This document shows positions 21,189-30,808 of a stretch of DNA of 44,274 nucleotides, one piece after another. The position numbers and the translations under genes are program-made. The first letter of the stretch is position 1. Every line of letters begins with the position of its first letter. The notes under the pieces are model-generated. The model made no database searches. It was given only the letters and a program-made list of their open reading frames with translations, and was not told the origin of the DNA. This DNA comes from an uncultured Methylococcaceae bacterium (lineage in GTDB: Bacteria; Pseudomonadota; Gammaproteobacteria; Methylococcales; Methylomonadaceae): NCBI GenBank assembly GCA_903927955.1, contig CAIYOW010000076.1, forward strand, positions 1 through 44,274, given 5' to 3'.

Positions 21189-21306
21189 GTAGGGTGGATT
21201 CGCCGCTAGGCAATCCACCACAACGAAGCCAATGCGGTGCGGATTATTACGGTTTTAATAAGCCAAACCGTCAAAAAGGTGGTTTGCTGGCGCGAAACCA
21301 CCCTAC
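21189..21306. repeat. dispersed inverted-repeat (MITE-like) element, copy A
   Basis: A 118-base element bounded by GTAGGGTGG and its complement CCACCCTAC. Its right end contains the hairpin GGTGGTTT-loop-AAACCACC; this 31-base stretch is identical to the right end of copy B at 30707-30808. Weaker similarity runs through the middle of both copies (ACAACGAAGCCAA against ACAAGGAAGCCAA, and the ACGGTTTT stretch). No open frame is contained. It lies between fdsD and the decayed DUF433/DUF5615 module and covers the last bases of the DUF433 frame. Confidence 0.75.
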
Positions 21307-21557
21307 ATTTGCCCCATCTTACGGGCTGGCCACCCGATGCTTGGGTAATTGCGCATCAACCAGAAACTTAGTTCAATCCTTTTCACCCTCACTATCTTGG
21401 ACGCAAATGCCAGCACGACCAAAATATCTTCCGTAGTCATACCAGCACCCAACCATTCCAAAATAGTTTCTACCGGATAGCGTAAACCTCGGGTACAAGG
21501 TTTGCCGTGGCAAATATCAGCATCCATCGTGATTCTTGAAGCTTGTATTTCAATCAT
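21303..21557 (-). pseudogene. DUF433 antitoxin-like protein, probably internally deleted
   Basis: The first 44 residues are a good DUF433 match: ITMDADICHGKPCTRGLRYPVETILEWLGAGMTTEDIL. Intact members then continue with a conserved segment of roughly ten residues (typically ADYPDLEREDI-like) before a short final helix. Here the reading jumps straight to VVLAFASKIVRVKRIE, as if that segment had been deleted in frame. The tail after IELS is read from what looks like the neighbouring toxin gene in another frame, so the natural stop is also lost. An AAGG ribosome binding site precedes the ATG, which lies 23 bases after the hybrid kinase stop. Intact DUF433 proteins pair with DUF5615 PIN-like toxins. 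A shortened but still expressed protein cannot be excluded. Confidence 0.6.
21319..21369 (-). pseudogene. remnant of a DUF5615 PIN-like toxin gene
   Basis: In a frame different from the DUF433 frame, the minus strand reads KFLVDAQLPKHRVASP and then a TAA stop. KFLVDAQLP is the hallmark N-terminus of DUF5615 (PIN-like) proteins, which normally follow DUF433 genes immediately. The start codon appears lost and the rest of the gene is missing; the repeat element at 21189-21306 begins right after the break. I read this as the stump of a decayed toxin gene. Confidence 0.6.
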
Positions 21558-21580: not shown

Positions 21581-24373
21581 TTAGCTCAATTCAGCCGGTT
21601 GCCCACCTAACTGCAACTTAAGCATAGCCACTAACTGATCGGAAACTATCGGTTTGGTTAAATAATCATCCATGCCGGCCGCTAAACATTTATCCCGCTC
21701 GCCTTCCATAGCGTTGGCGGTCAGTGCTATCACGGGTTGATGGGACAAACCTTGGTGATTTTCCATCAGGCGCAGTGCACGGGTCGCTTCATAGCCATCC
21801 ATCACCGGCATGTGACAATCCATGAATATTAAATCGTAGCCGCACAGTGCCAACTTATCTAGGGCAAGCTGACCGTTTTCCGCCACTTCCGGCACAATAT
21901 CGAATTTGGCCAGCTTAGCCATAATTACTTTTTGATTGATTTTGTTGTCTTCCACCACCAATACTTTCTTGCCCTGATAACTGGGCAGTTGGGTTTCGGG
22001 CTGGGCCATCTTAATAATTGCAGATGGTTGACCCTGTAGGGCATTGACCATAGCATCGTAGAGCTGCATTTGCCGCACCGGTTTCTGTAATTGCTGGACA
22101 ATCCCCGTGCCTTGAAAATCGCCCGGGTCAAACTGGTCACCCGATGATAATAAAATAATCGGCAAGTTGGCTAACGCGAGTATTTGGGCGAGATATTTTG
22201 CCAAGGTTAAACCATCCATTCCCGGCATTTGCATATCCAGCAGCATTAAATCGTAGCCCGTTTCCTTCAGCGCTAAGCTTTGCAAGTGTATCAGCGCGGC
22301 ACTACCACTATCAAGCTCGCTGACCTCCAGCCCCCACAGCCCTAAATAAGTGCTAAGGATTTTACCGTTGGTGGCGTTATCATCAACAATCAGCACGCGT
22401 TTACCAGACAGATCGTACGAGGCTGGCAAACCCAGCTTGCCTTCAACCGGCATAACTGGCAAGGTAAACCAAAAACAAGCCCCTTGACCGGGAATGCTGT
22501 CAACACCAATAGCACCGCCCATCAGCTCCACCAATTTTTTGCTGATCGACAAACCCAGCCCGGTGCCGCCAAAGCGGCGTGAAGCATCACTATCCACCTG
22601 ACTAAAGCGCTTAAACAAAAGCTGCTGAGCTTCTGGCGAAATGCCGATACCGGTATCACGGACTTCAAAGCGCAGCATATCCATAGCATCACCATCAACA
22701 ATTGGCGACTGGCTGATGCTCACGGAAATCTCGCCCTGTTCGGTAAATTTAATGGCATTACCGATTATATTAGTCAGCACTTGCCTGATGCGTAGGGGAT
22801 CGCCCTGCCAGCACAACGGCATGGGCATAGGTACTAAGCAATTTAACTCTAGTCCCTTGGCATGGGCCCGGTTGGCCAGTAAAGCACAAATATCTTCAAC
22901 CAGCTCAACCAGATTAAAGGCAACCTGTGCCACTTCAAATTTACCCGACTCTAGCTTGGACAAATCCAAAATATCGTTAATGATTGCCAGCAAAGCCTCA
23001 CCCGAGTCATGGGCTGTTTCCACCCAATTGCGTTGGTTAGGTGTCATTTTTGTTTCGCGCAGCAAATCCAACATGCCCAGTACGCCATTCATGGGGGTGC
23101 GGATTTCATGGCTCATATTGGCCAGAAAGGCCGACTTTGTGCGCGTGGCTGACTCGGCCAACTGCTTGGCATGGATCAGGGCTTGGGTGGCTTGGTGTTC
23201 CAGAGTAATGTCATCAATAATCACAACCAGACCGTTTTCAGGTGCTTCACTATACAGGGTTTTTCCTGAAAACCGGGCCCAAAACAGACTGCCGTCCTTA
23301 CGGATGAACTGTAGCTCGGTGCGTTGCAACTTGCCTTCCGTGATTGCCCTATACACGGGTAGAACATCTGTTTCATAGGTGCTTTGATCGGGATACCAAA
23401 CACTCGCTGGTTTGCCAATGAGTTCCCCTATGCCATAACCAAAAATCTCATCTAGCTTGCGGTTGCAACGGTGGATTAGACCCTCCTTAATAAGCACAAT
23501 ACCGGATGTTGCAGAATCGAAAATGGCGTGTTCTTCGGCACTGGCAAAGCGCAATATTTCCTCCATCTGCCGTTGTATTTCCAATTGCCGGAACAAATTA
23601 TTGCGTATTTCCACTAGCTCGGTGATGTCATAAAACCAAGCTAGTTTGGCTGCATTGCCATGGAACTGCATCTGCATAAAGGACGCTAGCGTCCATACCC
23701 TTACACCGTTTTCTGGATTTAAAAATTCAATCTGGCGATTGGTGATGGCATTACCGCTCGCCAGTTCCGCCTGTATCTCGTAGTAATCTTCCCTGTTGGC
23801 ATAAAATGCCGATGGATTGCCATCCATTGGCTCAAAAGACTTAAATAGATTGCTGTAAGCTGAGTTAAAAAACACTAACTCGCTGCCCTGATGACGGGTG
23901 ATTCTGATGGCAATAGGACTCAGGTTGAGAACATCCAGCAACTGCTGCTCATTGTTGCAGAGTGTGCGGAACAACCTGTACCGCTCGATAGCGTTCTCCA
24001 CGGTGCGTACCAGACTTTCCGGATTCATCCAGTTTTTACTGATAAAATCTTGCGCACCCAGCTGGAGCATGTTCGGTCCATCAAGACCACCGGCAACACC
24101 GGTCACCACCACTACCGGACAAGCCAGCAAGTGTGGCGCACCCAACGCCTTTAGAAAGTCCGGTGCATCGTAGTCAGGCAGATGATAATCGAGCAGGATA
24201 CAATCGGGCAGCCCTGCCCCGCTTTCTAGGCAGGCGCGTAATCCGGCAGTACCTGTTTCTGCGGTTTCGAAGCGGAAGCGTTGTTGCGCACCATTGTGCA
24301 ACAACCGCTGCATGATCTCCCGGTCTTCCGGGCTATCATCAATGATAAGTACGCGTAAGCTGTCACTTTTCAT
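21581..24373 (-). CDS. hybrid sensor histidine kinase, REC-PAS-PAS-HisKA-HATPase-REC-REC
   Basis: The 930-residue cytosolic protein has no membrane segment. An N-terminal receiver (about 5-125) has phospho-acceptor Asp62 in ILLDYHLPDYD. PAS domains lie at about 142-255 and 283-393, the second with the ITEGKLQRTELQFIRKDGS motif. HisKA has phospho-His422 in NMSHEIRTPMNG, and the HATPase has NIIGNAIKFTEQG, DTGIGI and GGTGLGLSI. Two receivers follow: KRVLIVDDNATN with LLDMQMPGMDG, and KKVLVVEDNKINQ with IFMDCHMPVMDG. No Hpt domain is present. It is 21 bases downstream of bphO, so it is cotranscribed with the heme oxygenase. The N-terminal receiver could take phosphate from the phytochrome kinases upstream; that is inference. 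Confidence 0.93.
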   Translation of the reverse strand: MKSDSLRVLIIDDSPEDREIMQRLLHNGAQQRFRFETAETGTAGLRACLESGAGLPDCILLDYHLPDYDAPDFLKALGAPHLLACPVVVVTGVAGGLDGPNMLQLGAQDFISKNWMNPESLVRTVENAIERYRLFRTLCNNEQQLLDVLNLSPIAIRITRHQGSELVFFNSAYSNLFKSFEPMDGNPSAFYANREDYYEIQAELASGNAITNRQIEFLNPENGVRVWTLASFMQMQFHGNAAKLAWFYDITELVEIRNNLFRQLEIQRQMEEILRFASAEEHAIFDSATSGIVLIKEGLIHRCNRKLDEIFGYGIGELIGKPASVWYPDQSTYETDVLPVYRAITEGKLQRTELQFIRKDGSLFWARFSGKTLYSEAPENGLVVIIDDITLEHQATQALIHAKQLAESATRTKSAFLANMSHEIRTPMNGVLGMLDLLRETKMTPNQRNWVETAHDSGEALLAIINDILDLSKLESGKFEVAQVAFNLVELVEDICALLANRAHAKGLELNCLVPMPMPLCWQGDPLRIRQVLTNIIGNAIKFTEQGEISVSISQSPIVDGDAMDMLRFEVRDTGIGISPEAQQLLFKRFSQVDSDASRRFGGTGLGLSISKKLVELMGGAIGVDSIPGQGACFWFTLPVMPVEGKLGLPASYDLSGKRVLIVDDNATNGKILSTYLGLWGLEVSELDSGSAALIHLQSLALKETGYDLMLLDMQMPGMDGLTLAKYLAQILALANLPIILLSSGDQFDPGDFQGTGIVQQLQKPVRQMQLYDAMVNALQGQPSAIIKMAQPETQLPSYQGKKVLVVEDNKINQKVIMAKLAKFDIVPEVAENGQLALDKLALCGYDLIFMDCHMPVMDGYEATRALRLMENHQGLSHQPVIALTANAMEGERDKCLAAGMDDYLTKPIVSDQLVAMLKLQLGGQPAELS

Positions 24374-24394
24374 GATTATTGGCTTGATATTTGG

Positions 24395-24991
24395 TCAGGC
24401 AGGATGGATAGTGGCGGAACACAGCCAGTGTTCCAATGTGATAAAGGTCTCGCAAGCGGCATGGATCATCGATGCCTCATCCACTGTGTCTATTGTCGTA
24501 GCCATCAGCACTTCCCTAAACGTTTGCCACATCGCCCCTGTTTGTTCACCGTAGCCGATGAAAAAGGCGGCGCCGTTTTCGGCATTAAGATTGAGCAGCA
24601 TTTTAAAATGACGGCTGATCAACTGCCCGCCCAAGGTCGAGCCTTCCAGCACATAAAGGCAGCCCAAGGCGGCGGCAAGGTCAGTGCAAGACGGTAGAAC
24701 GGTGCAAATGGGCAGCTTATCCAGCGCATCATAATCTACCCCCAATACCTGAAGGTCTGCCGCCAATAAGGGCAATTTGCTACGCTTGGCGATATCCGGT
24801 AGCCAGTCATGCAATGCGCTGACACCGCTAATGCGCGCTTCAATGGGGCGGTAATAACCCCAGAACGCCTTCATCAGACGCAGGTAATCCGCCGGAGAGA
24901 AACTGGGGGCCAATAAATTTAAATTACCCTCAAGTCGCCTATGCAGGGGAGCTGTAGCATTTTTAAGTGCGGTCAATATGTCAGGCTTCAT
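24395..24991 (-). CDS. bphO: biliverdin-producing heme oxygenase (BphO-like)
   Basis: The 198-residue protein belongs to the bacterial heme oxygenase family. The probable proximal heme ligand is His17 in TAPLHRRLE, and the distal helix has the glycine-rich LGCLYVLEGSTLGGQLISRHF segment. The FWGYYRPIEA and YGEQTGAMWQTFREVL regions are also family-typical. It opens heme to biliverdin, the chromophore of bacteriophytochromes, with release of CO and iron. Position in the same-strand cluster with two bphP genes supports a role in chromophore supply and not only iron recycling. The ATG is 23 bases from a perfect 18-base palindrome. Confidence 0.93.
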   Translation of the reverse strand: MKPDILTALKNATAPLHRRLEGNLNLLAPSFSPADYLRLMKAFWGYYRPIEARISGVSALHDWLPDIAKRSKLPLLAADLQVLGVDYDALDKLPICTVLPSCTDLAAALGCLYVLEGSTLGGQLISRHFKMLLNLNAENGAAFFIGYGEQTGAMWQTFREVLMATTIDTVDEASMIHAACETFITLEHWLCSATIHPA

Positions 24992-25014
24992 GGTATCGTG
25001 AATACGTCAGGTAA

Positions 25015-25032
25015 TATATTTTTAAAAATATA
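25015..25032. promoter_or_regulatory. 18-base perfect palindrome upstream of bphO
   Basis: TATATTTTT followed directly by AAAAATATA is a perfect two-fold palindrome without spacer. It sits 23 bases before the bphO ATG on the minus strand, within a strongly AT-rich stretch. It could be an operator for a dimeric regulator or merely AT-rich promoter DNA. Confidence 0.4.
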
Positions 25033-25130
25033 CAACATTATTACTGTTGATTAAAAGTGCCGACGGCCAATTGGTTTGTTAATGCTAATTAATATTCTTA
25101 AATTGCTAATTTTAGCAAGCATGGCTTGTC

Positions 25131-25258
25131 GGGTTACACCCTCCGGGGTGCAAGCGCTGCGCTTTTATGCCCCAGAGCATTAATGAAACTGCTAAAGTAA
25201 TGGGGGATGTTAACTCCGGGGTGCAAGCGCTGCGCTTTTATGCCCCAGAGGGTAAACC
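25131..25258. repeat. tandem 37-base hairpin repeats inside a larger inverted repeat
   Basis: An identical 37-base sequence occurs at 25141-25177 and 25214-25250, 73 bases apart. Each copy can fold: the ends pair (CTC-GGGG with CCCC-GAG) and the middle contains AAGCG-CTG-CGCTT. The pair is flanked by GGGTTACACCCTC (25131-25143) and the near-complementary GAGGGTAAACCC (from about 25248). The block lies between bphR and bphO and could act as a terminator or processing site between the two halves of the phytochrome cluster. Confidence 0.7.
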
Positions 25259-25266
25259 CGATCTAC

Positions 25267-25410
25267 ACGAGACTTCGCTCAGAGAGCGTCAGCAATGTAG
25301 CCCGTATGCAGCACAGCGTAATACGGGGCAATCGTGCCACGATGTCCCGGATTCCGCCCGCCTCATCCAGGCTACTTTAAAAGCAGCACGTTGGCTGCGC
25401 AAAGTCGAAG
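25267..25410. repeat. nested inverted-repeat elements between bphR and bphO
   Basis: Two elements appear nested. The inner one (25297-25375) is bounded by GTAGCC and GGCTAC and has internal stems such as CCCGTAT/ATACGGG; it resembles the common dispersed GTAGCCCGGAT-type repeats of proteobacteria. The outer one has arms at 25267-25289 (containing GACTTCGCTCAG) and 25388-25410 (ACGTTGGCTGCGCAAAGTCG...). These match the two arms of the element at 35921-36019 with few differences (20 of 23 for the latter), but in swapped order. An open frame across this stretch (25167-25493) is judged non-coding. Confidence 0.55.
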
Positions 25411-25449
25411 CCTTGTATGGCTGCCCTTATTCTGAGTCAGAACAGTTGG

Positions 25450-25914
25450 CTAATCCCCCCCCCCCGCGCATTCAGGCAGCAGGGCGGTATTGAACCAATA
25501 GTCCTCCAGTCCTCTTATTTTTTCTAGATATTCCTCAAGTTTAAAGGGTTTAAGTATATAACCAGCCGCTCCAAAACGATAACAGGCTTCAACATCTAGA
25601 GGGTTATTAGAAGTGGACATAACCACGATGGGAATCGCTAGTAACGGCTTAGTCTGCCGTATCTCCTTAAGCATCTGTAAACCATTTATCCCCGGCAAGT
25701 TAAAGTCGAGCAGCACCATGCACGGCGACTCATCAATGCCGCCTAATTGTGGCAAGCCCGGAAACAAACGTGACAGAGCCTCTTCGGCACACGCTGCTCG
25801 GATAATGGGATGGGTAAAACCCGTCTTATGCAAAGCCCAACAGAGCACCTCATAATCTTCGTCGGAATCCTCTACAATCAGCAGGGGAGACATTTTTTTC
25901 AGGAGATTTATCAT
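25450..25914 (-). CDS. single-domain response regulator of the phytochrome cluster (BphR-like)
   Basis: The 154-residue protein is a stand-alone receiver. The acidic pocket is in LLIVEDSDED, the phospho-acceptor is Asp70 in VLLDFNLPGING, then comes VVMSTSNNP and the conserved Lys in YILKPFK. No output domain follows. Such CheY-like partners normally follow bacteriophytochrome kinase genes. It begins 2 bases after the bphP1 stop, so it is coupled to it. The last codons are three Gly codons within a run of 11 G on the coding strand, then Asp and stop; slippage there would change the C-terminal tail. Confidence 0.93.
   Translation of the reverse strand: MINLLKKMSPLLIVEDSDEDYEVLCWALHKTGFTHPIIRAACAEEALSRLFPGLPQLGGIDESPCMVLLDFNLPGINGLQMLKEIRQTKPLLAIPIVVMSTSNNPLDVEACYRFGAAGYILKPFKLEEYLEKIRGLEDYWFNTALLPECAGGGD
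25455..25465. repeat. homopolymer run of 11 C at the 3' end of the response regulator
   Basis: Eleven consecutive C (G on the coding strand) encode the terminal Gly residues of the response regulator. With 11 G the protein ends GGGD-stop. With 10 the tail would read GGG-ISQLF, and with 12 GGGG-LANCSDSE, before the next stop. The tract is of a length known to slip in phase-variable genes, but the change would affect only the tail. Confidence 0.6.
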
Positions 25915-25916
25915 CG

Positions 25917-28232
25917 TTAGCCCGTTTCGTCTGCACGCTCGGGCGTCAGCGTGAAATAAAAGGTCGAACCCTTGCCCAGTGCCGATTCAACCCAGATGCG
26001 TCCGCCTTGTCGCGTAACGGCTTTATGGGTGATCGCAAGGCCAACACCGGTTCCGCCACCAAATTCTTTTTGCCCGTGCAGGCGCTTAAAAGGCTGGAAG
26101 ATGTATTCGTAAAACTCGGGCAGGATGCCTATGCCATTATCCTGAACGAAAAACACCGCTATGCCGTTAGTTGTGTGGCAACCTATTTTAATGGTTTTCA
26201 CCGCTTCGCGGTTGTACTTTATGGCATTAATAATGAGATTTTGGAATATAATTTTCACAGAGGTGGGGTTACACAGCATGATCGGCATAGCGGGCTGAAT
26301 GTCGATAGTTATGCAGTCATCGGGGTTGGCTTTTTTTAGCATATCGACGATATCTTCCACCAGGCTATTGATCGGGCATGTGAGCAAATCCAGATCGGTA
26401 TGGCCAATATGGGAATATTGATGCAGTGCTTCCAAAAAGTGATGCATCCGTTCTGTCAAATAGAGAATCGTCCCTAGCCATTGCTGCCCCTGCCCTGACA
26501 AATGCCCTTCTTCTTCCTGCTGTAGCAGCTCAGTATAATTGTGTATGCCGCGTAACGGCTCTTTTAAGTCATGGGAAGCTGCGTAGACAAAGCTGCTGAG
26601 TGCTTGGTTGCTGAACTCCAGCTCCGTATTGAGCCGCATCAACTGGAAGACCCGTTCAACGAGGATGTCCTGCAAGCTTAGCCGCAGTTTGTTTGCATAG
26701 TCAATTTCACAGTCCTGCCAAGGCTGGGAATGGCCACGCACGGCTTCTGTCCACAACGCGAAAGAGGTGCGCGGCTGCAACCGGCTGGCTTGACCGTCCC
26801 TGTCAATGATGACCGGTTTGTTCGGGTCGCCAGCCCAATGCGTTTCCGATAACACCTCCGCGCGAAACCACATTACCCATGTGGCACTCGTTCGGGACAC
26901 GCGAATGGCCAGCAAGCCGCTCGCCACCTCAGAAAAATCTTCGGCAGCCGGGCAATCATTGGGCAAACCATGGGTTGCCAACACGTCGGCCTCCTGTTGC
27001 GCAAGCCATTCCACCAGCAGGCCGACTTGATGTTCCGATGGGGTTATGCCCATTAGCGTCACTTTGCCACCCTCAAGCAGTGCCGCCCCATCGGCATCAA
27101 TCCCGTTAAGCAGGTTTATGTGCTGCCCGAATAAGGCTTCGTGGTGGGTATCAGCCCGCCCCATCACACTAATGAGTTGGTTATGCACTTGGTCTAGCCG
27201 GGTACGATAGGCGTAGTTATCCAAGTTTTCCAGATCGCCAATCCGCAACGATATCATCCGCGACAATAACTCAATCGGAAAACGTTGCTCATAACTTAGA
27301 TATTTCGGCTCGCTATGGTGCATACAGGAAATAAGGCCCCACAGCGTGCCAGACTTCAGCAAAGGCATGACCAATGTGGCTTTCACCCCCATATTGCGCA
27401 GATAACCGGTATACATTTCCGACACACTCCGTAAAAAGGAGTGGCTAAGATCAACCGGATGTCCGTCAGCCAACGGCGATAGCTCTGGAAACAGGGACAC
27501 AGGCACATAGTCCACATTGGGAAGGTGTCTTAGCGGGCTTAACGCGAATAGCCGCCGTGCCGGTTCCGGCACATCACTGGCCGGATAATGCAAGCCAAGA
27601 TAGGCTTCCAGAGCCGCATCTTTAGCCTCGACAATCACCTCTCCGCTGCCCTTCCTATCGAACCGGTACACCATAACCCGCTCGAAGCCGGTCAAAATGC
27701 GTATCTGTTCAACCGCAACAGACAGAAAGCTGAGTAAACCGGTGCCACCATACAATTGCTGGATGGTGTCCTGCAACCTGGAGCAATAACCGTAAGCGTG
27801 ATTCATTTCTACTGTGCTGGTGGTACGCTCAAATTCCAGTAACAATAAGCCATCAATGCGGTTGCCAGATATATGCAGCACACCCTCCCGATGCAATGGG
27901 CAGGGCACGGAAATCAAGTGACTAAGAACACCGGTCAGTTTTTTTTCAAGTAGTTGGACACGCATAGCCGCACTGTTTTCGTCGCCCAATAAACCGTCAA
28001 GGCATTGTCCTACCAGCTGTTCGCAGGGAATACCCAAAAAATCAGCCGTGTTGGTGCTTGCCTGAACGATTCGAAGGGCGGGCTCTTGCAACACCAGCAG
28101 CGCGCCATGAGGCTGAATCGCTCCGACAAGATGCACCTGCTCGCGGTCGCAACTGCTTAAGTCCACGTTGTTTGCTGTCACCAGAATGGCTTCTCGGTTT
28201 GTTGCGGTGCTTGGGATAGGGGCTTCAGGCAT
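25917..28232 (-). CDS. bacteriophytochrome histidine kinase BphP1 (PAS-GAF-PHY-HisKA-HATPase)
   Basis: Of an open frame starting at 28334, the ATG at 28232 is chosen: it overlaps the bphP2 stop by 8 bases, has a GGGGG motif just ahead, and gives a 771-residue protein of normal size. The N-terminal Cys28 (DLSSCDREQVHLVGAIQPHG) is where biliverdin is attached in bacteriophytochromes. GAF (about 150-330) has YPASDVPEPAR with the conserved Asp220; PHY has the tongue motif PRTSF (488-491). HisKA has His554 in ASHDLKEPLRG, and the HATPase has NAIKYN and GGTGVGLAI. Unusual residues: the SPxH motif is SEMY (Tyr274 in place of the His), and the usual CHH is CMHH (Met304 aligns with the first His). Confidence 0.93.
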   Translation of the reverse strand: MPEAPIPSTATNREAILVTANNVDLSSCDREQVHLVGAIQPHGALLVLQEPALRIVQASTNTADFLGIPCEQLVGQCLDGLLGDENSAAMRVQLLEKKLTGVLSHLISVPCPLHREGVLHISGNRIDGLLLLEFERTTSTVEMNHAYGYCSRLQDTIQQLYGGTGLLSFLSVAVEQIRILTGFERVMVYRFDRKGSGEVIVEAKDAALEAYLGLHYPASDVPEPARRLFALSPLRHLPNVDYVPVSLFPELSPLADGHPVDLSHSFLRSVSEMYTGYLRNMGVKATLVMPLLKSGTLWGLISCMHHSEPKYLSYEQRFPIELLSRMISLRIGDLENLDNYAYRTRLDQVHNQLISVMGRADTHHEALFGQHINLLNGIDADGAALLEGGKVTLMGITPSEHQVGLLVEWLAQQEADVLATHGLPNDCPAAEDFSEVASGLLAIRVSRTSATWVMWFRAEVLSETHWAGDPNKPVIIDRDGQASRLQPRTSFALWTEAVRGHSQPWQDCEIDYANKLRLSLQDILVERVFQLMRLNTELEFSNQALSSFVYAASHDLKEPLRGIHNYTELLQQEEEGHLSGQGQQWLGTILYLTERMHHFLEALHQYSHIGHTDLDLLTCPINSLVEDIVDMLKKANPDDCITIDIQPAMPIMLCNPTSVKIIFQNLIINAIKYNREAVKTIKIGCHTTNGIAVFFVQDNGIGILPEFYEYIFQPFKRLHGQKEFGGGTGVGLAITHKAVTRQGGRIWVESALGKGSTFYFTLTPERADETG

Positions 28233-30576
28233 TAATCCCCCCGTCACTAGCAGATGGAAACGCCTGGCAGGAAGCCAGTGTAAAGTAAAAGGTAGAGCCT
28301 TGTCCCGGCACCGATTCCAGCCATATACGACCACCGTGCCGTTCTACATGTTTGCGCACTAATGCGAGCCCCGCCCCAGTGCCACCGTGATAGTCGTTGC
28401 GGCCATGCAAACGGCGAAAAATCGTGAAGATGGCATCATGGAATTGCTCGGGGATACCGATGCCGTTGTCCCGGACGAAGAAGGTAAGCGTTGGGGTTTC
28501 GGAAAAGCCGATCTCGATGTGCTTTTCGGGCTGATCATTATATTTTATGGCATTGGTGATCAGGTTGCTAAACACGGAAGTCGCCCGAATCGGATCACAG
28601 CTTAGCGTTGGCAAGGTTTGCGGGATGTCAATTTGTGTTTGCGTGTCCTTGATAAGGGCGGACAAGCTGTCAAGAACACTGCCCAACAACAGATTGATAT
28701 CCACTAACTGCAACGCCATTTGTTGTTGGCTGGCGCGTGAATATTGCAACAGGGCGTTAATTTGATCACTCATCTTGCCAGTTAGCCTAACAATGGTATT
28801 GAGCCAATTTTGTTCTTGCTGCCCGAATTGCCCGCTGCTACTATCCAGTAAAAATTGGGCGTAATTAGCAATGCCACGGAGGGGTTCTTGCAGGTCATGG
28901 GAAACAATGTAGGCAAATGCTTCCAGTTCGATGTTACTTTGCGCTAAGCGTAACTGTAAGGTGCGCTGATTGTCGGCGTACTGCAATTGGATAACTGTGC
29001 GTTGTAGATCGATTAGCGCTTCGGCCTGATAACTTTGCCAGGCGCGTGCCGTGCCGCGCATGTCCTGTTTCCAAACCTCAAAAGAGCCGCGCGGCGTAAA
29101 ACGTTCCTCACCGCTGACAGCATCCACCTCAACTTGCTTGAGAGGATCACCTGCCCAGTTGACTTCATAGACCTGTTCAGGCCGAAAAGCCAGCAAATAC
29201 TGGCCCGGTTCCTGCAAACGCGCGGCGAGCAGCCCGGTTGCCTGGGCTTGGCATTGGGCGGCGGCCTCGAACAGTGCAGGCAGCCGGTCAGTTATAAAAA
29301 AGGGCGAGGGCTGTCCGTCCAGCCAGGCAATCAGCGCTTGGATAACCGTTTCTTCTGGGGTAACGCCTGCACAGAGAATTTGGCCATCCAAGCAGAGCGA
29401 TGCGCCGGTGCTGTCGAGAGGGTCGAGCAGTTGTTGCGGTAACTGGCCCAACGCGATTGGCAACACTTCGGCAGAAGATAGCTGGGTAGTGATTTGGCTT
29501 ATGCTGTGCTTGGCCCGTAGCGCGGCTTGCAACTGCTCGCCCCGTTCTTTTTCCACCAATAACAGTGCCGACATTTCGGCAAATAATTTAAAAGCCAAGC
29601 GGTCGGAGTAGGTCACATGGCGAGGTGCCGTGTTTTTGCAACTAAAGAAGCCCCACAGCTCCCCTTTATCCACCAAACTTATAACCATGCGTGATTGCAC
29701 ACCCATGTTGTTATAAAAGCGGCGGCACATCGGCGATATACTACGCAACACCGCCAGACCAAGGTCTATCTGCAACGGGTTTTGGGTCTGATCGGCCAGA
29801 ACCAAGGGTACTGGCTGGTAGTCCAAGTCCAGGGCATACTGCAACGGCATCAACAGCATTTGTCGGCGGGCGGATTCTGGGATGTCGGAGCGTGGAAAAC
29901 GTTTGTCGAACACTGAAAGAAAATGCGCTTCGCACGCTTCAGCAATAGCATGGAAGGAGCCATCCGTAAGAAAACGGAGGCCTACCACCGAATCGAAACC
30001 GGTCAACCGTTTCAATTCACGGACACCGATAGCCATGCCTTCCTGCCAGCTTTCAGCGCTGTGCAAATTGCTGACACAGTCGGTGATCTCGGCAATGCGC
30101 CCCGTCGGCCAACTTTCTGCCACTTCAGCGGTTATGGCTTCGAACTCCACAATGAAAAAATCGCCAGAGCGGTGCGCGAAAACATCAAACCGATGGCTGC
30201 CTTGCAAAGTCAGAAAACTGCCCAGATAGCGGGGCAACTGGGGTTCGGTGATGAGTGCCAGACTGGTCTCCAAGGTCTGGCGGATGTCTGGCGCGAAGAT
30301 ACGGTCAAGATGGCCATGCAAAAGCTGTGCTGCATCGCTACCGAACCAAGGCAGGGTGTTCGCGCTGGCCCCCTGAATGCGATACTCGTTCAACGTTAAG
30401 AGCAGCAACACCCCATGCGGCATAATACCCCCCGGAAATTGCACCGGTTCATGGTCACAGTGGGTCAAATCCACCGGATCCGCTGAAACGTGGTTGCCCC
30501 CTTGATAGATCCCTTGATTGGCCCCTAAATTGACAAAGGGTGTCGATGAAGATGCCCAAACTTGCGAATGATCCAT
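28225..30576 (-). CDS. bacteriophytochrome-like histidine kinase BphP2 with atypical chromophore pocket
   Basis: The 783-residue protein has the same PAS-GAF-PHY-HisKA-HATPase layout as its downstream neighbour. Cys40 in VDLTHCDHEPVQFPGGIMPHG is at the biliverdin attachment position (IMPHG replaces the usual IQPHG). GAF keeps FPRSDIPESAR with Asp231, and PHY keeps PRGSF (495-499). Kinase His560 is in VSHDLQEPLRG. Several pocket residues deviate: the SPxH motif is SPMC (Cys284 replaces His), the later Tyr is Phe287, CHH is CKN (Lys314), and the DRVMxYxF stretch reads DSVVGLRF (Leu200 in place of Tyr). It may bind biliverdin with altered spectra, or act as a partner of BphP1. It is first in the cluster; an AGGATTCGG sequence precedes the ATG. 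Confidence 0.9.
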   Translation of the reverse strand: MDHSQVWASSSTPFVNLGANQGIYQGGNHVSADPVDLTHCDHEPVQFPGGIMPHGVLLLLTLNEYRIQGASANTLPWFGSDAAQLLHGHLDRIFAPDIRQTLETSLALITEPQLPRYLGSFLTLQGSHRFDVFAHRSGDFFIVEFEAITAEVAESWPTGRIAEITDCVSNLHSAESWQEGMAIGVRELKRLTGFDSVVGLRFLTDGSFHAIAEACEAHFLSVFDKRFPRSDIPESARRQMLLMPLQYALDLDYQPVPLVLADQTQNPLQIDLGLAVLRSISPMCRRFYNNMGVQSRMVISLVDKGELWGFFSCKNTAPRHVTYSDRLAFKLFAEMSALLLVEKERGEQLQAALRAKHSISQITTQLSSAEVLPIALGQLPQQLLDPLDSTGASLCLDGQILCAGVTPEETVIQALIAWLDGQPSPFFITDRLPALFEAAAQCQAQATGLLAARLQEPGQYLLAFRPEQVYEVNWAGDPLKQVEVDAVSGEERFTPRGSFEVWKQDMRGTARAWQSYQAEALIDLQRTVIQLQYADNQRTLQLRLAQSNIELEAFAYIVSHDLQEPLRGIANYAQFLLDSSSGQFGQQEQNWLNTIVRLTGKMSDQINALLQYSRASQQQMALQLVDINLLLGSVLDSLSALIKDTQTQIDIPQTLPTLSCDPIRATSVFSNLITNAIKYNDQPEKHIEIGFSETPTLTFFVRDNGIGIPEQFHDAIFTIFRRLHGRNDYHGGTGAGLALVRKHVERHGGRIWLESVPGQGSTFYFTLASCQAFPSASDGGINA

Positions 30577-30706: not shown

Positions 30707-30808
30707 GTAGGGTGAAACCCACCACAAGGAAGCCAACCGGGCGTGGGTTTTTGCGGTTTTTATAGAACGCACCGGTAAAGGTGGTTTGCTGGCGCGAAAC
30801 CACCCTAC
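30707..30808. repeat. dispersed inverted-repeat (MITE-like) element, copy B
   Basis: A 102-base element bounded by GTAGGGTG and CACCCTAC. The right-hand 31 bases, including GGTGGTTT and AAACCACC arms, are identical to copy A at 21189-21306. Copies A and B bracket the whole phytochrome/hybrid kinase island: A is at its downstream edge and B at its upstream edge. No protein is encoded. Confidence 0.75.

Follow-up and report, generated by a model that had tools for sequence, protein, structure and literature searches.

An uncultured Methylococcaceae bacterium carries, on contig C76 of its 2.94-Mb draft genome (completeness 99.63%), a light-signalling island of five genes, all on the minus strand: two bacteriophytochrome kinase genes (bphP2 and bphP1), a response regulator gene (bphR), a heme oxygenase gene (bphO) and a hybrid histidine kinase (HK) gene. 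The whole stretch analysed here, 44,274 nucleotides of this contig, is referred to as the window. We find that BphP2 belongs to a type of phytochrome whose bilin pocket has been rebuilt, with a Cys in place of the conserved His260, and that it stands beside BphP1 in all 14 genomes of the order Methylococcales that hold a full-length copy. The hybrid kinase, in turn, is a chimera in which an island receiver head sits on a local body. The explanation that we favour, and to which we give somewhat better than an even chance, is that BphP1 is the light sensor, BphP2 serves as its partner kinase, either retuned or blind to light, and the first receiver of the hybrid kinase (REC1) passes their phosphate to interchangeable outputs. 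The genes are as follows.

28225..30576, minus strand: bphP2, 783 amino acids, PAS-GAF-PHY-HisKA-HATPase with rebuilt bilin pocket (open reading frame, Pfam, pocket alignment, predicted fold)
25917..28232, minus strand: bphP1, 771 amino acids from its ATG, PAS-GAF-PHY-HisKA-HATPase (open reading frame, Pfam, alignment)
25450..25914, minus strand: bphR, 154 amino acids, single-domain response regulator (open reading frame, Pfam)
24395..24991, minus strand: bphO, 198 amino acids, heme oxygenase, the only PF01126 match in the genome
21581..24373, minus strand: hybrid kinase, 930 amino acids, REC-(PAS?)-PAS-HisKA-HATPase-REC-REC (open reading frame, Pfam)

A preliminary description of this stretch had named these five genes in this order, and both were recovered on the sequence, its open reading frames and Pfam, together with the overlap of 8 bases between bphP2 and bphP1 (read on the sequence), the gap of 2 bases between bphP1 and bphR and that of 21 bases between bphO and the hybrid kinase gene; a gap of 458 bases between bphR and bphO was absent from it. 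The ATG of bphP1 sits within a longer, GTG-started open reading frame beginning at 28334. Pfam assigns PAS_2-GAF-PHY-HisKA-HATPase to both BphPs, and to the hybrid kinase three receiver stretches, HisKA, HATPase and one PAS domain (PAS_9, residues 291-390). The second of two PAS inputs proposed for this kinase therefore stands, while the first, at residues ~146-265, has no Pfam match even at E 5 and may be a diverged PAS. BphR consists of one intact receiver without an output domain and adjoins a phytochrome kinase, as do Rcp1/BphR-type single-domain regulators. BphO scores 48.1 bits against PF01126 (cut-off 23), the one heme oxygenase family searched, and as its sole match in the genome it supports the proposal that the island has its own biliverdin supply. 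The receiver aspartates and lysines and the kinase histidines of the island proteins are all present. Taken together, the long frames, the domain matches and the conservation in 14 genomes exclude a chance occurrence of these genes.

A rebuilt pocket in a conserved phytochrome pair

A BphP2 profile was searched against 311 genomes of the order, with the best three candidates scored per genome; a separate PHY search drew 201 genomes from the order. Matches at E up to 1e-90 were observed in 24 of the 311 genomes, and full-length BphP2 (at least 1,100 bits) in 14, where BphP1 adjoins it without exception, at most 155 bases apart. The complete order BphP2-BphP1-BphR-BphO-REC-first kinase is found in seven of the 14 (the window and loci L050, L051, L052, L167, L168 and L169), and in L053 and L054 a REC-first protein, cut by the contig end in L053, immediately follows bphR. 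Several contigs end inside the island. This comparison of gene order, proposed with the preliminary description as a check, did not find the genes separated and supports the view that they form one signalling unit. Outside these loci, genome G166 carries a second BphP2-like gene (L065, 9505-11822) that is split in two frames, with no BphP1 in the stretch. L067, from an uncultured Methylococcales bacterium, was at 55% the closest named sequence among the best 80 of 571 matches kept from the phytochrome search.

Pocket residues are numbered, we take it, as in Cph1 and DrBphP; the Cph1 sequence as aligned has Cys-His at 259-260, in agreement with this numbering. The pocket alignment comprised 14 BphP2, 17 BphP1 and 5 BphP3 sequences and 8 others hand-picked from the loci. 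Aligned to 8uph, the window's BphP2 has Leu at Tyr176, Cys at His260, Lys-Asn at the His-His pair of His290 and Phe at Tyr263, with the N-terminal Cys present. The exchanged His260 corresponds to a single codon:

29725..29727, minus strand: Cys284 codon of BphP2, the His260 position by alignment to 8uph, Cys in 14 of 14 BphP2s

Cys260 is shared by all 14 BphP2s. Tyr176 is missing from every one (Ala in five, Val in four, Thr in two, Asn in two and Leu in one), and no His aligns with the His290 pair in any, so that not one of the 14 has any of the three residues, Tyr176, His260 and His290, expected of a photoactive bacteriophytochrome. Position 263 is Phe in ten and Tyr in four, position 259 is Met or Ile, and the kinase His and Asn are retained throughout. 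By Pfam and by its predicted model, BphP2 nevertheless has the architecture and fold of a phytochrome kinase: the AlphaFold model (mean predicted local distance difference test score, pLDDT, 81.3; predicted template modelling score, pTM, 0.62) gives a good prediction for most of the photosensor, and its 50 listed matches in the PDB are all phytochromes or phytochrome chimeras.

Tyr176, His260, Tyr263 and His290 of Cph1 are all named in the available text of one study (PMC11924222), in which exchanging Tyr176 for His makes the protein strongly fluorescent and combines a Pfr-like tongue with a Pr-like chromophore, a state read there as photochemically inactive, and Tyr263 to Phe likewise increases fluorescence. 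In Agp1, His250, the counterpart of His260, is described as important for proton reuptake (PMC12961729, in the text available), and in engineered phytochromes a Cys put into the GAF domain is described as capturing biliverdin and shifting it to the blue (PMC5114657, likewise). In BphP2, several sites at which one exchange alone disturbs photochemistry are thus altered together, yet the protein is conserved, and from this we infer a partner kinase that is light-blind, locked or colour-shifted. Judged by its residues, the pocket is unlikely to support ordinary phytochrome photochemistry, and the residues of all 14 sequences do not support the earlier view of the two kinases as ordinary light sensors.

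BphP1 is closer to the norm. In the window it combines PAS-GAF-PHY-HisKA-HATPase with the N-terminal Cys, Tyr176, Asp207 and Tyr263 of bacteriophytochromes and departs from them in having Tyr at the conserved His260; across the 17 BphP1 rows, Tyr176 is invariant, and Tyr260 (His in L050) and Tyr263 occur in 16 each. It has His-His near His290, one inserted residue ahead, the alignment being uncertain by that residue. Both proteins score below the cut-off (1040 bits) of the NCBIfam BphP equivalog NF041576, at 308.7 bits for BphP1 and 168 bits for BphP2; as this family models one equivalog group, the miss says only that they lie outside that group. In the phytochrome tree the two clades are sisters (support 100/87), with a stem of 1.14 for BphP2 against 0.17. 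Nine of 69 sequences were left out of this tree (frames above 1,000 amino acids: L034-L039, L041, L045 and L046), as were the BphP1 of L054 and the split L065 copy (length filter) and L167-L170 (later additions).

The same genome encodes a third phytochrome, BphP3 (L004, G000:C30, 5910-11552), of the Tyr260 type, with a REC-PAS-PAS-HK-REC kinase and then a REC-PAS protein encoded behind it; on contig C30 no bphO or single-domain bphR stands alongside. BphP3 falls in a separate Tyr260 group, with Tyr in five of five. Beyond the BphP1, BphP2 and BphP3 groups, His260 is kept in most phytochromes compared, the exceptions being L030 and L074 (Tyr) and L061 (Cys). Cyanobacterial L077, L081 and L093, further exceptions, have Cys-Cys at 259-260 and Asp at 257, and no N-terminal Cys.

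A conserved receiver head on changing bodies

The hybrid kinase is composed of two parts with different relatives.

23939..24373, minus strand: REC1 head, residues 1-145, 78-81% identical to five g10 island kinases, G+C content 0.54
21584..23179, minus strand: kinase-REC2-REC3 body, residues 399-930, closest among those compared to the C115 and C123 kinases of its own genome

REC1 is also 55-65% identical to four proteins of three f4 genomes, and so is 55-81% identical across nine relatives' proteins although their bodies differ. The kinase block, in contrast, is 63% identical to the C115 kinase and 43-48% to those of g10, and REC2 and REC3 are 48% and 73% identical to C115 against 30-43% to the single C-terminal receiver of g10. 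At the DNA level, bases 1-429 of the kinase gene match L051 at 82% identity, and beyond them only three scattered matches of 29-49 bases were found. Given this sharp boundary, the separate affinities of head and body, and the difference in G+C content (0.54 in REC1, 0.485 in the rest), the hybrid kinase is a chimera. Of the body's paralogues, C115 (L014, 6032-9591) has a REC-AraC regulator next to it, and C123 (L015, 10164-13294), cut by the contig end, has an Hpt domain and adjoins a REC-SpoIIE phosphatase.

Elsewhere the REC1-type head is joined to HK (L050), HK-REC (L051, L167), PAS-HK-REC-Hpt (L052) and PAS-HK-REC (L054) bodies and to PAS-GGDEF-EAL proteins (L054, L055), and receivers 36-48% identical to REC1 follow BphP3-type genes (L004, L056, L086, L137). 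Among 265 receiver domains, window included, 19 of the 20 best REC1 matches lie in phytochrome loci, in a set biased by having been collected with phytochrome-type queries. A REC-first kinase also stands at most 3.5 kb downstream of a phytochrome in 20 of 29 named loci (L067-L094, L137). As REC1 is conserved across bodies and REC-first kinases lie downstream of phytochromes, REC1 is best read, from such comparisons, as a phytochrome-linked input socket, and the role of phosphate acceptor suggested earlier for this kinase appears likely. REC-GAF-HK proteins with a phytochrome-type kinase were also seen beside large HK-REC-REC proteins in L178 (10048-11931) and L182 (7974-9746), with no phytochrome in the fetched stretches.

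The BphP2 kinase, too, occurs on another sensor. In L057 (G118) and in L058/L067 (one contig), a REC-HD-GYP-HisKA-HATPase protein takes the place of BphP2 beside BphP1; a like protein lies near a contig end in L173 (G233), with no BphP1 seen. The kinase part of this type of protein shares 55-61% identity with the BphP2 kinase and nests in the BphP2 kinase clade (100/100, 18 rows; L058 rows, from the same contig as L067, left out and identical rows merged), with moderate support inside the clade (95/83, 11 rows; 90/63, 9 rows). This position implies that the BphP2 photosensor is replaceable, and a BphP2-type kinase can, by this comparison, stand beside BphP1 without any phytochrome sensor. The reverse, with these kinases as ancestors of BphP2, was considered and is less likely than photosensor replacement, given their place within the BphP2 clade of the tree. 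Both the HD and the HHExxDGxGYP motif are intact, which we take to mark an active phosphodiesterase of cyclic di-GMP (c-di-GMP).

By Pfam, none of the five island proteins has a DNA-binding, GGDEF/EAL or Hpt domain, bearing out the view that no output is encoded here. The hybrid kinase has no BarA/TorS-like C-terminal Hpt after its receivers (Pfam), and it lies under the cut-off of every NCBIfam family among the matches listed (25 of 156). The genome's two Hpt matches are both within other hybrid kinases on other contigs, one of them the C123 paralogue of the island kinase body (REC3 67% identical), which, with its neighbouring REC-SpoIIE phosphatase, is by inference a candidate output route. 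Relatives carry three types of fusion that suggest c-di-GMP or Hpt relays as outputs: REC1 joined to GGDEF-EAL, REC1 joined to a kinase with a terminal Hpt, and HD-GYP joined to the BphP2-type kinase.

A proposed light-input relay, its alternatives and its origin

We propose that the island acts as the front end of a light-input phosphorelay. BphO would make biliverdin, and BphP1 would be a red/far-red sensor kinase of the Tyr260 type. BphP2 would be its tandem-duplicate partner, with photosensory fold and catalytic residues under selection, acting light-blind, locked or colour-shifted on the same receivers as BphP1. BphR and the hybrid kinase's REC1 would receive the phosphate, and REC1 would set the activity of whatever body follows, here a hybrid-kinase body like others of this genome; from its REC3, phosphate would go on to an Hpt protein encoded elsewhere.

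Several observations weigh against this proposal. All 14 BphP2s retain the N-terminal Cys, Phe203, Asp207 and Arg254, as well as the Arg and Ser of the PRxSF tongue motif; given the retained Cys, Asp207, Arg254 and tongue residues and the predicted phytochrome fold, BphP2 may still take up biliverdin and answer to a different colour of light. His260 is dispensable in some steps, as its Agp1 counterpart is described as not critical for proton release (PMC12961729, in the text available). The conservation of REC1 also fits input from any kinase, not BphP alone, and five of the 14 islands show no REC-first protein after bphR in the fetched stretch: it is upstream in L055, where bphR was not seen, divergent in L170 and in L047 and L048, where the two BphPs are in swapped order, and not found in L049. 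The 14 islands include near-identical pairs (L051/L167, L053/L054 and L047/L048), so the independent lineages are fewer than 14. Finally, dS near 1 makes the selection test a rough one. In this test, nonsynonymous (dN) and synonymous (dS) divergence were averaged over 15 pairs of six orthologues. For PAS-GAF, BphP2 gave dN 0.125 and dS 0.92 (dN/dS ~0.14) and BphP1 dN 0.121 and dS 0.87; for PHY, 0.194 and 1.00 (14 usable pairs) against 0.161 and 0.92; and for the kinase, 0.132 and 0.95 against 0.142 and 1.14. As its PAS-GAF values resemble those of BphP1, BphP2 is not decaying.

It is possible, if on balance doubtful, that BphP1 and BphP2 both function as photoreceptors, differing in spectral type and sharing one response regulator, with the changed BphP2 pocket doing no more than shift the colour. 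The retained attachment Cys, Asp207, Arg254 and PRxSF residues, as well as the BphP1-like PAS-GAF divergence, are consistent with this. Moreover, tandem BphPs are published, to judge by the title of Yang 2015, and the titles of 6bao and 6bap point to a wild-type Stigmatella phytochrome seemingly without the conserved pocket His, solved alongside a T289H mutant. On the other hand, the joint loss of Tyr176, His260 and the His290 pair in all 14 sequences is wider than a one-residue colour shift, and the REC-HD-GYP proteins of G118, G130 and G233 have the BphP2-type kinase without a phytochrome sensor.

More speculatively, BphP2 may found a class of obligate partner phytochromes. Its pocket would have been rebuilt after duplication, and it would form a hetero-oligomeric kinase with a Tyr260 phytochrome and sense a further signal, be it a Cys260-bilin adduct, redox state or biliverdin supply, the two jointly controlling a portable REC socket to c-di-GMP or Hpt outputs. 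We advance this tentatively and consider it unlikely as a whole.

It is improbable that the hybrid kinase is a mere neighbour, with REC1 answering another kinase and the island proper stopping at bphO. The upstream, divergent or unseen REC-first genes of other islands would fit such a view, as would the PAS carried by the body and the body's closest similarity, among the kinases compared, to two other hybrid kinases of the same genome. However, REC1 is 78-81% identical in the five g10 islands despite their differing bodies, its best matches lie in phytochrome loci (19 of 20, in the biased set), REC-first kinases follow phytochromes in 20 of 29 named loci, and the hybrid-kinase mutant of Ramlibacter, in the available text of PMC6848086, behaves like the bphP mutants there. 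That BphP2 is a decaying duplicate without a role is very improbable, and we rejected it as a pseudogene: key pocket residues are lost and the extra copy in G166 is split, but the frames are open and conserved beside BphP1 in every genome holding full-length BphP2, with intact kinase residues, invariant Cys260 and low PAS-GAF dN/dS.

The surroundings of the island are rich in repeats.

21212..21306, minus strand: copy of a dispersed ~95-base repeat, beside the 3' end of the island
30716..30808, minus strand: direct copy of that repeat, 79%, upstream of bphP2
25105..25450, no strand assigned: repeat-rich stretch between bphR and bphO, with dispersed repeats and two exact 37-mers

The ~95-base repeat has five more matches of at least 90 bases elsewhere in the genome, and one segment of 25105-25450 has eight other genomic matches of at least 80 bases. 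This stretch may uncouple bphO and the hybrid kinase gene from bphR; the corresponding interval measures between -11 and +144 bases in the five g10 relatives, and 787 bases in L052. None of 12 other genomes of the window's genus has a PHY match, and none of 19 has a full BphP in the family search (G273 matches by its kinase part alone), which together with the flanking direct repeat copies suggests that the island may have been acquired. The identities between this genome and g10, 80-83% for SecA and 68-79% for BphP1, do not prove this. The sister genome G158 (no PHY match) matches the window to 30837, beside zapE, and then diverges; the other flank found no match in the fetched stretch, so that an insertion is not demonstrated.

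A small DUF433 gene (21303-21557) lies between the island and formate dehydrogenase genes. A run of 11 G (25453-25463) lies at the 3' end of bphR, where slippage would alter the last residues. Scans found 17 promoter-like signals (10.8, standard deviation 3.2, in shuffles) and 9 terminator-like signals (12.3, standard deviation 4.0), and Rfam gave no matches.

Comparison with known systems

We know of no partner phytochrome with Cys260 and without Tyr176, and no description of a class with Cys260 and lacking Tyr176 and His290, or of a head-swapping phytochrome-linked receiver, was found in the available text of the open-licence PubMed Central literature. Phytochrome light sensing in methane oxidisers seems little described there: among the matches listed, no paper was by its title on phytochromes in methanotrophs or Methylococcales.

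RpBphP2 and RpBphP3 of Rhodopseudomonas palustris are both photoactive and are said to share one response regulator. As in the island, they are two adjacent bacteriophytochromes (title of Yang 2015). FiDCB (9jry), dual-cysteine by its title, has a GAF Cys in the same segment as BphP2; in the alignment, FiDCB has Cys at 259 and keeps His260, whereas BphP2 has Met or Ile at 259 and Cys replacing His260, and so is not of the FiDCB dual-Cys type.

The closest layout described is that of Ramlibacter tataouinensis, where, in the available text, a putative operon of hmuO, bphP1, a response regulator gene (cheY) and an atypical hybrid kinase gene unites the same four functions as the island, and mutating the hybrid kinase gives the same phenotype as mutating either bphP (PMC6848086). 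The order differs, the heme oxygenase gene standing first in Ramlibacter and fourth, after bphR, in the island. Its authors propose that its two BphPs cooperate, but the second is unlinked and photochemically active, while BphP2 of the island adjoins bphP1. The 20 named loci with a REC-first kinase (18 of them cyanobacterial) resemble the island in having a phytochrome, usually a single-domain regulator and then the kinase on one strand; unlike the island, they have no tandem phytochrome partner, and most have His260. The 29 loci, mostly cyanobacterial, came from a search with the island phytochrome family as query (best 80 of 571). These loci and the Ramlibacter operon, so far as its text was available, rule out the island as an unprecedented gene order, and a REC-first kinase behind bphP, which the preliminary description did not recognise from described systems, has precedents.

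Hence the general layout and tandem BphPs are already known, and what appears new is the Cys260 class of BphP2 and the swapped receiver head. BphP2, always found beside its near-normal twin BphP1 in these 14 genomes, is a naturally occurring experiment on the pocket residues that a phytochrome requires, one maintained by selection and not introduced by mutation. The constant receiver head on changing bodies, in turn, indicates how evolution can rewire light input to c-di-GMP, Hpt relays and local kinases.

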